The notes under the pieces: model-generated | Databases searched by the model: none | The model's input: only the letters and a program-made list of their open reading frames with translations | Told to the model about the DNA's origin: nothing | Program-made: the position numbers and the translations under genes | In this document: positions 1 to 1,844 of the stretch, piece after piece | Position numbering within the stretch: the stretch's first letter is position 1 | How the letters are laid out: each line of letters starts with the position of its first letter | DNA from: a virus | Direction: 5' to 3' (one strand) | DNA length: 20,038 bases | IMG/VR virus record: IMGVR_UViG_3300046009_001894 | Span: 1 to 20,038 of that record

Positions 1-4
1 GAAA

Positions 5-484
5 ATGAGTATCGAGAACCTGCTCAAGACTAACGTAAATGAGCATCTATCATACAACCCAGATACAGGATTATTTACCTGGCGTATGAAGCGCGGCAAC
101 AAAGCCGCTGGATCCATAGCAGGAAGTCAACACAATAACGGATATCACACAATTTTTTTGTGTGGTCGTAGATTTTACGCGCATCGCCTAGCTTTTTTGT
201 TTATGCGCGGCAACCTACCAACTGGCGTTGTTGATCATATCAATGGCGTCAAGAATGACAACAGGTGGATAAATCTACGAGATGTTTCTCAAAGTGAGAA
301 CATGGCAAATAGATCTGGAGCACAAAAAAATTCAAAGACTAAACATCTTTGTGTGAGCCCTCATGTTGCTGGTGGATACGTTGTTCAGATTAGGCGAAAC
401 AAAAAACGCATCTATGTAGGATATTTTAAAGAACTGGAAGCCGCATTAGTTGCTTATAAAGGAGCCGCAAATGAGTATCTCTGA
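5..484 (+). CDS. HNH homing endonuclease-like protein with C-terminal AP2-like DNA-binding region
   Basis: A 159-residue protein that is probably a free-standing phage homing endonuclease, nicking or cutting DNA and spreading itself between related phages. Residues 60 to 92 hold the HNH core: HR at 60-61, then DHINGVKNDNRWINLR at 77-92, the classic DHxNGxxxDNRxxNLR pattern with the metal-binding His and Asn residues intact. Residues 122 to 158 (GGYVVQIRRNKKRIYVGYF and the following A/Y-rich helix) look like the AP2-type DNA-binding domain often attached to such enzymes. Start is the ATG at 5; anything upstream is outside the window. Its last 14 bases contain the start of the next gene, and bases 458-464 inside it (AAAGGAG) are that gene's ribosome binding site. 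Oddity: residues 1-13 (MSIENLLKTNVNE) match the first 13 residues of the downstream annealing protein at 10 positions. Confidence 0.9.
   Translation: MSIENLLKTNVNEHLSYNPDTGLFTWRMKRGNKAAGSIAGSQHNNGYHTIFLCGRRFYAHRLAFLFMRGNLPTGVVDHINGVKNDNRWINLRDVSQSENMANRSGAQKNSKTKHLCVSPHVAGGYVVQIRRNKKRIYVGYFKELEAALVAYKGAANEYL
458..470 (+). promoter_or_regulatory. Ribosome binding site that fixes the annealing-protein start
   Basis: AAAGGAG at 458-464 stands 6 bases before the ATG at 471. It lies inside the last codons of the HNH endonuclease gene and decides in favour of ATG 471 over the upstream TTG at 450. Confidence 0.75.
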
Positions 485-1040
485 ACTTTTAAAAATCAAC
501 GTCAACGAAAAAACAGAGCGCAAGAATGGCCTGACCTACCTAAGTTGGGCATGGGCTTGGGCTGAAGCCCTGAAAGCTGATCCAACAGCCACATTCAAGG
601 TCGAGACGTTCAAGCGCGATCAGTACACCGAAGAGCCGTTCATGACCCTGCCAGGAGGCACTGCAATCGTCTGGGTCACTGTGACGATCTTTGGCAAGGC
701 AATGACCTGCCAGCTTCCAGTCATGGATCACCGCAACAAAGCTATCCCGAATCCAGACGCCTTCCAAGTCAATACGGCCATCATGCGCTGCATGACTAAA
801 GCTCTGAGTCTGCATGGCCTGGGTCTGTACATCTATGCCGGTGAAGACCTGCCCGAAGGCGATGCCCCTGACGTTACAGACTGGCTGTCAGCTATCGAGG
901 CCACAGTGACTGGTGAAGAGCTTCAGACGGTCTACAAACAGGCCTACGAGGCTTGCCAGGGCCATCAGGAGTCCATCAAGAAGGTGATCGAGGCTAAGAC
1001 CGCCCGTATTGCCCGTGCCAAGCAGGAGAAAGCAGCATGA
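471..1040 (+). CDS. DUF1071/Sak-type single-strand annealing protein
   Basis: A 189-residue protein recognised by its N-terminal signature TYLSWAWAWAE at residues 22-32, typical of the DUF1071 family of phage single-strand annealing proteins (Sak/Erf-like). A second conserved stretch, VNTAIMRCMTKALSLHGLGL, lies at 100-119. Such proteins coat single-stranded DNA and anneal complementary strands during phage recombination. The ATG at 471 is chosen because AAAGGAG precedes it at normal spacing; an in-frame TTG at 450 lacks such a site. The gene overlaps the HNH gene by 14 bases and is followed by a small gene and a YqaJ-type exonuclease, the usual partner. The C-terminal third is charged and helical. 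Family assignment is confident; the annealing activity is inferred from family and context. Confidence 0.88.
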   Translation: MSISELLKINVNEKTERKNGLTYLSWAWAWAEALKADPTATFKVETFKRDQYTEEPFMTLPGGTAIVWVTVTIFGKAMTCQLPVMDHRNKAIPNPDAFQVNTAIMRCMTKALSLHGLGLYIYAGEDLPEGDAPDVTDWLSAIEATVTGEELQTVYKQAYEACQGHQESIKKVIEAKTARIARAKQEKAA

Positions 1041-1234
1041 AAGACACAGGAGGACCAGCTTTCCCGTTTGACGGAACCCATGCTTTTACCGGGATGAGTC
1101 TGCGAGACTACTTCGCGGCCAGGGTGATGCAGAGCTTTATTACATCGGATCGATTTGTCACCTATGAATCCTGTGCTGTCGATTCTTACGCAATGGCAGA
1201 CGCTATGCTGAAAGCGAGGCAGTCAAATGGCTGA
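1037..1234 (+). CDS. Small conserved phage protein of unknown function
   Basis: A 65-residue protein starting in an ATGA overlap with the annealing-protein gene and ending 8 bases inside the exonuclease gene, so translation is probably coupled in both directions. It contains GGPAFPFDG near the N-terminus (residues 5-13) and GMSLRDYFAARVMQ (19-32), a pattern that recurs in small proteins of many phages but has no assigned function. No membrane segment or Cys motif is visible. Its place between annealing protein and exonuclease suggests a link to DNA metabolism, but that is only positional inference. Confidence 0.8.
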   Translation: MKDTGGPAFPFDGTHAFTGMSLRDYFAARVMQSFITSDRFVTYESCAVDSYAMADAMLKARQSNG

Positions 1235-1844
1235 CCAACGCACAGACGCATGGCTCCAACAGAGAATTGGCAAAGTCACGGCCAGCAACTTGCACAAAGT
1301 GCTAGCCAAAACCAAGACCGGCTACGGGGCTGATCGGGGTCATTACCTGACCCAGCTAGTCCTAGAGCGCATTACAGGCCAAAAAGCCGATTCCTACACC
1401 AATGCAGCCATGCAGTTTGGTATCGAGCAGGAAGCCTTCGCTAGAGCCGCTTACGAGGCCCATAGAGGCGTTTTGGTGGAAGAGGTGGGGTTTATCCCTC
1501 ATCCGACAATTCCAATGGCTGGAGCGTCTCCTGATGGCCTCGTAGAGGACGGTATGGTAGAGATCAAGTGTCCAGAATCGGCAACCTTCCTTGAAGTGCT
1601 GCTATCCCAAAACCCTGTTGCTGGCAAGTACTTTGCCCAGATGCAGTGGCAAATGAGGTGCGCCGACAGACCCTGGTGCGACTATGTTGTTTTTGACCCA
1701 CGTTTTCCACAAAAAATTCAGTTGGTTATACATAGGGTAAATCGGGATGACAGATGGTTGGCAGAAGCTGAAACTGAGGTCAAGAAGTTCCTTTGCGAAG
1801 TAGAGGAAAAAGTGCAATCGTTGAAACAGAAGATTGGAGAATGA
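1227..1844 (+). CDS. YqaJ/lambda-type recombination exonuclease
   Basis: A 205-residue PD-(D/E)XK nuclease of the YqaJ viral recombinase family. Visible motifs in order: GKVTASNL at 15-22, GIEQE with Glu67 or Glu69 at 65-69, GASPDGLV at 99-106 with catalytic Asp103, EIKCP at 112-116 with Glu112 and Lys114, and QMQWQM at 138-143. These match the expected active-site layout of lambda exonuclease relatives, which digest one strand from double-stranded ends so that an annealing protein can load. Length is normal for the family. The C-terminal 30 residues form a charged helix. The gene overlaps its upstream neighbour by 8 bases and is followed directly by an SSB-like gene, completing a phage recombination set. 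Confidence 0.92.
   Translation: MADQRTDAWLQQRIGKVTASNLHKVLAKTKTGYGADRGHYLTQLVLERITGQKADSYTNAAMQFGIEQEAFARAAYEAHRGVLVEEVGFIPHPTIPMAGASPDGLVEDGMVEIKCPESATFLEVLLSQNPVAGKYFAQMQWQMRCADRPWCDYVVFDPRFPQKIQLVIHRVNRDDRWLAEAETEVKKFLCEVEEKVQSLKQKIGE

Follow-up and report, generated by a model that had tools for sequence, protein, structure and literature searches.

Why should an HNH endonuclease gene and the annealing-protein gene that follows it begin almost alike? The question is raised by the left end of a viral contig of 20,038 nucleotides (nt), IMG/VR record IMGVR_UViG_3300046009_001894, which was analyzed as a whole (hereafter the window) and which begins only 4 nt 5′ of the ATG of the HNH gene. 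The HNH open reading frame (ORF; positions 5–484, 159 amino acids) overlaps by 14 nt the ORF for the annealing protein Sak (positions 471–1040, 189 amino acids), and the products of the two genes start MSIENLLKTNVNE and MSISELLKINVNE, respectively. As an earlier note on this DNA had correctly reported, these starts match at 10 of 13 residues and at 25 of 39 bases. Judged by residue composition, at least nine matches in the 12 residues that follow the initiating methionine have a probability of p ~2e-9, and the match in nucleotides one of p ~3e-7. The HNH protein exhibits significant similarity to the HNH_3 domain (PF13392, E 5e-14, above the cut-off) and, across residues 7–158, to AP2-type phage HNH proteins (phrog_99, E 4e-57); its catalytic-type motif AHRLA...DHIN...NLR is intact, with the DH and N positions conserved (alignment A3). 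The product of the second gene contains the SSAP_Sak domain (PF06378, E 2e-42, residues 5–134), which we take to be the renamed family that the earlier note called DUF1071. We argue here, and put the probability of this interpretation at about 0.9, that a mobile HNH homing-endonuclease cassette has inserted between codons 14 and 15 of sak and that it regenerates the gene that it interrupts.

The native start of sak

To which of the two genes does the shared start belong? Related loci and contigs that were compared with the window are designated here by L-numbers. Four relatives lack the HNH gene, namely, L003 (96% identity in Sak), L004 and L005 (93%), and L006 (91%), and in all four sak begins ATGAGTATCGAGAACCTGCTCAAGACTAACGTCAACGAGCAT (with zero to two differences), which is the leader of the HNH gene and not the present start of sak. 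The leader of an HNH-bearing relative, L002, is identical to the sak start of L006 at 42 of 42 nt and to those of L004 and L005 at 41 of 42, and the corresponding values for the leader in the window are 40 and 39. The present sak start of the window matches L006 at only 28 of 42 nt (25–29 over the range of native alleles). The likeness between the HNH and sak starts extends as far as codon 14, where a CAT in the HNH gene corresponds to CAC or CAT in native sak.

Because the contig ends 4 nt before the HNH gene, upstream DNA had to be taken from relatives. In L083 and L002, the 60-nt stretch that precedes the HNH gene shares 44–55 positions with the corresponding stretch before native sak and includes CCCATGCCGCAGCATCCCGCAGCGGTCTTT-AAGGAG, just as is found upstream of sak in the HNH-free relatives, whereas the DNA before the second sak start shares only 29–36 of 60 positions with it. 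Thus, the HNH gene opens with the native 5′ end of sak. Its first 42 nt are sak codons 1–14, and what precedes them is the native promoter region with its ribosome-binding site, so that all three now lie ahead of the HNH body. Meanwhile, past the second start the alignment with native sak picks up exactly at codon 15, at ACAGAGCGCAAGAATGGC. Since the left-hand match ends at codon 14 and the right-hand match resumes at codon 15, the insertion lies between these codons, and there is a precise presence/absence polymorphism at this one site, L002, L083 and L084 having the HNH gene and L003–L006 lacking it. The inserted element consists of the HNH body and a recoded replacement for sak codons 1–14; the present sak start (471–512) is a newcomer that arrived with the 3′ end of this element.

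The earlier note had recognized the leader as the 5′ end of an annealing gene and the endonuclease as using the start region of its own target gene, and both points are borne out; so is a junction near codon 13–14, which emerged when relatives with and without the HNH gene were aligned. Neither HNH homologues that have the same leader but no link to DUF1071 genes nor HNH-free relatives that lack a junction near the annealing-gene start, the outcomes that the note had named as refuting it, came to light. What must be reversed is the polarity, for the leader, which had been thought to be borrowed from another phage, is local and the second start the imported one. The features of the locus are as follows.

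1–4, plus strand: the 4 nt that end the 5′ untranslated region of native sak, at the contig edge (likeness to the upstream DNA of relatives)
5–46, plus strand: native sak codons 1–14, now the HNH leader; left homology arm of the insertion (identity to HNH-free alleles)
47–484, plus strand: body of the HNH homing endonuclease, fused in frame to the native leader; left junction at 46/47 (domain and alignment)
About 176–307, plus strand: HNH_3 domain (profile match); the C-terminus of the body is AP2-like
458–464, plus strand: Shine-Dalgarno-like AAAGGAG within the codons for the HNH C-terminus; the ATG of regenerated sak follows after 6 nt (reading of the sequence)
471–512, plus strand: recoded sak codons 1–14, borne by the element (25–29 of 42 nt identical to native alleles)
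471–484, plus strand: HNH C-terminus (NEYL and stop), encoded in the overlap with the recoded sak start (ORF overlap)
513–1040, plus strand: what remains of native sak, beginning at codon 15; right junction at 512/513 (alignment, PF06378)
1227–1844, plus strand: YqaJ exonuclease gene, intact in the window (comparison with L002)

As the earlier note had proposed, sak is now preceded by a ribosome-binding site inside the HNH C-terminus, the AAAGGAG at 458–464. Such a Shine-Dalgarno-like stretch for the restart inside the C-terminal codons of the HNH gene is usual (AAAGGAGCCGCAA-ATG in the window and GGAGAATTTGCAAATC-ATG in L329), and the codons that overlap it encode an HGEFA-type tail in several cases and are otherwise KG/LRE codons. 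The same double use of HNH C-terminal codons is seen at 458–470 of the window and in L109, L108, L329 and L098. The 14 recoded codons have a G+C content of 0.286, as against 0.557 in the remainder of sak.

Movement, recurrence and loss of the cassette

Does the cassette move as one unit? Between L082 and L083, which represent two virus lineages, the HNH body and recoded codons are identical at 464 of 466 positions, whereas the upstream region, leader and rest of sak are identical at 711 of 767 (~93%; Fisher p 6e-10). The recoded start, which is the same in L002, L083 and L084, is identical at 42 of 42 nt between lineages whose flanks differ, in disagreement with the view of the earlier note that the local annealing gene had kept its own start; it was imported with the HNH gene. 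A blastn search for distant matches to the cassette among named phages gave no match. We also note that L083 (316–744) and L084 contain a further HNH gene on the minus strand, ~2.3 kb upstream of the sak cassette and 36% identical to the query.

A second view of such movement comes from lysozyme genes. In Salmonella phage AG11 (Jerseyvirus) an HNH protein starting MPNRNISDNGL is encoded by a gene that overlaps by 14 nt a lysozyme gene whose product starts MRNISNNGIKFTAAFEG. The lysozymes of HNH-free Jerseyvirus phages start MSNRNISDNGLHFTAAFEG, and their DNA matches the HNH leader of AG11. Kagunavirus phages BUCT825 and ZCEC5 have nearly the same HNH as AG11 but with the leader GTGTCTCGAAACATTTCAGATAATGG, which is the lysozyme start of the HNH-free Kagunavirus L363 and L359. 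A comparison of AG11 with BUCT825 shows 98.2% identity in the HNH body and 96.7% in the recoded lysozyme codons, as against 70% in the leader, 48% in the upstream region and 71% in the rest of lysozyme; overall, the lysozyme cassette is identical at 490 of 499 positions and its flanks at 456 of 731. Here, too, the leader is the recipient's and the recoded end is the element's. For both sak and lysozyme, the element is closer between lineages than are its flanks, which is to say that it has moved horizontally.

Some part of the AG11-type HNH is present in 34 phage records, and most of it in 18 of these. In Bas73 (L361) the lysozyme HNH gene has been gutted by an internal deletion and the recoded start is retained. 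In Bas71 (L362) there is no HNH gene, and the lysozyme gene consists of native GTGTCTCGAAACATT joined to recoded AGCAACAATGGCATCAAATTC; Jerseyvirus Ent2 (L101) likewise has an HNH-free lysozyme allele with a recoded start. The alleles of Bas71 and Ent2 are perhaps scars of precise loss, created by deletion at the GAAACATT microhomology, although alleles of the Ent2 type could alternatively be of the donor type. Because the sequenced Escherichia phages of the Bas series hold both a gutted element and an HNH-free recoded allele of the lysozyme type, the model can be tested in them. At this lysozyme site Salmonella phage S119 (L477) carries another HNH element, whose likeness to that of AG11 is confined to roughly the first 60 nt of the HNH body; its divergent lysozyme 5′ end is ~115 nt long and contains amino-acid changes. 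In sak itself, we note that the start of the gene in HNH-free L008 (561–620) departs from the others after codon 5–6 (29 of 42 nt) and is possibly a recoded or converted allele.

How general is this arrangement? We gathered relatives of the HNH from bacterial genomes as well as viral contigs and scored the leader of each against the N-terminus of the product of the next gene. A score of at least 32 was reached by eight of 219 testable loci and by none of 3266 re-pairings, the maximum for which was 31. The eight loci correspond to six target genes: sak, lysozyme, a tail-fiber gene (L108 and L109), rusA (L264) and unnamed genes in L329 and L225. HNH-free alleles confirm four of these targets, sak, lysozyme (in two phage genera), the tail-fiber gene and rusA. 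The leader in L109 is identical at 39 of 39 nt to native tail-fiber starts (L437, L436, L434, L433, L372, L371 and L370), and the downstream copy matches the same starts at 28 of 39. The leader in L108 fits another native tail-fiber allele better, and the recoded copies in L108 and L109 are identical at 41 of 42 nt. When the rusA case is compared with the native gene of a relative, 31 of 33 nt match in the leader and 21 of 33 in the recoded copy. A wider bacterial survey of this HNH family yielded few further loci and, by eye, no clear additional case. The pattern that the earlier note had treated as a single curiosity is real and recurs across target genes and, as considered next, nuclease families.

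In L002 the neighbor of sak, yqaJ, is interrupted after 13 codons (4757–5486 of L002; 1265–1268 is the counterpart in the window). The last 30 nt of its leader, CAGCGCACAGACGAGTGGTTCCAGCAGCGC, are the same in native L006, and the insert, which encodes a 203-residue nuclease of an HNH-like family unlike that of the sak HNH (phrog_374, no Pfam match), is followed by a recoded yqaJ start, MDANDYQNIKQGTDAWQSARCGKVTAS, where the window has native MADQRTDAWLQQRIGKVTAS. A distant phage, L023 (about 870–1560), displays the same arrangement in its own yqaJ. Unlike the sak leader, that of yqaJ is separate from the nuclease, ending in a stop a few codons further along. The left ends of the inserts in L002 and L023 are alike (TGTAxTGGTTTATAAT). 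A weaker parallel to the sak cassette is provided by Lactococcus 936-type phages (L093 and L094), in which an HNH of a different type is located directly before sak and has the native sak upstream region (60–61 of 67 nt) and first 7 nt; in sak itself the ribosome-binding site is new and the codon changes are few.

Proposed mechanism and rival explanations

What kind of element would produce this arrangement? Polymorphism and mobility, as seen for homing endonucleases, are observed directly, and the steps that underlie them would be site-specific cutting of the allele that lacks the HNH gene and gene conversion. The native promoter, ribosome-binding site and 14 codons, fused in frame, would drive the HNH gene and would also serve as the left homology arm. 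Around codon 14/15 of an uninterrupted sak gene, the HNH protein would make a nick or a cut, and repair from a cassette-bearing genome would copy the cassette in, with the native leader and the region from codon 15 onward acting as arms. Splitting and recoding would make the occupied allele resistant and would limit deletion between the two copies of the start. Full-length Sak would be produced by overlapping re-initiation at the Shine-Dalgarno sequence within the HNH C-terminal codons. Finally, the recoded end may have been acquired by co-conversion from a diverged donor gene.

Several points weigh against this interpretation. The cleavage, homing and expression steps are deduced from sequence. 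A degenerate-pattern search of IMG/VR for a donor of the recoded sak start matched only three HNH-bearing contigs. The majority of the 219 HNH loci lack the leader/downstream signature. HNH-free alleles were sought and not found for the targets in L225 and L329, two of the six, and in L225 there is neither an overlap of the HNH gene with its target nor a clear Shine-Dalgarno sequence.

The lack of a donor in the IMG/VR search would fit a different origin of the second start, namely, that insertion duplicated the sak 5′ end, as a target site or in tandem, and that one copy then diverged neutrally, and many of the differences between leader and recoded copy are indeed synonymous. However, recoded ends are nearly identical in elements that lie within different native backgrounds, the recoded sak end is low in G+C, and the lysozyme end in S119 has diverged over ~115 nt with amino-acid changes, as expected for an imported homologue; this long diverged end speaks for a diverged donor rather than for a duplicated copy that drifted. 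We consider duplication unlikely. The polarity favored by the earlier note, in which the HNH gene arrived with the annealing 5′ end of another phage and the local annealing gene kept its start, does account for the clear homology of the leader and the second start, but native alleles and their upstream DNA (L003–L006) match the leader and not the second start, and it is the second start that travels with the HNH gene across lineages. We judge that polarity very improbable.

A homing endonuclease inserted in a gene is typical of introns, and an HNH gene carried in sak by a group I intron (or an intein), with splicing restoring the gene, would be in keeping with this. No Rfam match to a group I intron above noise surrounds the HNH gene in the three loci checked (L083, L098 and L109), and an intron-encoded endonuclease was rejected on these grounds; moreover, the HNH ORF reaches as far as the ATG of the second sak start, and this start possesses both a Shine-Dalgarno sequence of its own and a complete recoded 5′ end, which would be superfluous under splicing. 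Splicing is, in our view, scarcely tenable. Could the adjacent genes instead be alike by chance, or by convergence on leaders of the YNPDTG-type HNH proteins? Most HNH proteins of this family do have short, variable leaders before the YxPxTG motif. A chance resemblance of the HNH and Sak starts is ruled out, however, by the composition-based p-values and by the absence of re-pairings at the survey threshold, and the L002 leader is the native sak 5′ end at every one of its 42 nt, with a similar upstream region as well; the probability of chance or convergence is negligible.

Relation to known elements

Is a cassette that regenerates the start of its target like anything already known? Mobile ORFs with a C-terminal duplication are found in fungal mitochondria, in atp6 of Allomyces and in atp6, atp9, cox2 and nad3 of Glomus, and bring with them a foreign, recoded gene end that is 64–81% identical in nucleotides to the native end (PMC3630166). 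Like these, the sak cassette is a free-standing homing-endonuclease ORF within a gene that is kept as a full-length hybrid. In the fungal elements, however, it is the 3′ end (the C-terminus) that is replaced, and the enzymes are of the LAGLIDADG or GIY-YIG type, whereas here it is the 5′ end, with an HNH enzyme, in phages; and for atp6 and cox2, at least, the native end is no longer expressed, whereas here the nuclease takes it over as its own leader and start (PMC3630166). The sak cassette is gene-end replacing in that recoded codons 1–14 are joined to native codon 15, but the end in question is not the 3′ end.

Among phages, mobA in gene 39/60 of T4 and mobE in nrdA of Aeh1 are free-standing HNH genes inside a gene and, like the sak cassette, harness upstream promoters and have overlapping ORFs, but their targets remain two polypeptides and have no regenerated end (PMC2988022, PMC5009743). 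IPA-HNH of ICP1 and the HNH endonucleases (HNHEs) of Skunavirus, which are of the same broad HNH_3/AP2-type class as the sak HNH, cluster at essential genes and at boundaries of genetic exchange, and Skunavirus also has an HNH gene directly before sak; the available portions of these accounts describe HNH genes beside or inside essential genes and make no mention of regenerated, recoded starts (PMC10448857, PMC12724721). The engineered HomeR drive likewise places a nuclease at its cut site in an essential gene together with a short, re-coded end that resists cutting and restores function, and it uses the native promoter (PMC7968924). HomeR is man-made, consists of Cas9 and a guide RNA and acts at the 3′ end of a fly gene, and the cutting and resistance demonstrated there are the counterparts of steps that we infer here (PMC7968924). 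No phage precedent for replacement of a 5′ end was found in the literature searched, the coverage of which was incomplete, so that an earlier description is possible. We conclude that the sak cassette is a real, recurrent and, as far as we have found, undescribed 5′ variant of gene-end-replacing homing elements.

Given that the same arrangement is present in unrelated phages and target genes, the cassette looks like a natural "home-and-rescue" gene drive, a natural counterpart to the engineered ones. It had been supposed that a homing endonuclease can reside within a gene only by way of an intron, an intein or a split that the gene tolerates; phages appear to have a further solution, in which the interrupted 5′ end is replaced, and a selfish gene can thereby occupy recombination, lysis and tail genes without self-splicing. 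Such elements may explain the frequent overlap of phage HNH genes with the start of the next gene, and the native junction predicts cleavage sites straight from sequence. They also make the N-termini of HNH proteins and the start codons of the genes that follow easy to misannotate. It is likely, we believe, that phages hold a general class of natural home-and-rescue elements, built on two or more families of homing endonuclease, that enter essential genes some 10–17 codons from the start, appropriate the native start region and provide a cut-resistant, recoded 5′ end by means of overlapping re-initiation, and whose life cycle of invasion, decay and precise loss leaves resistant recoded alleles behind. 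If so, this life cycle would explain the mosaic 5′ ends of phage genes.
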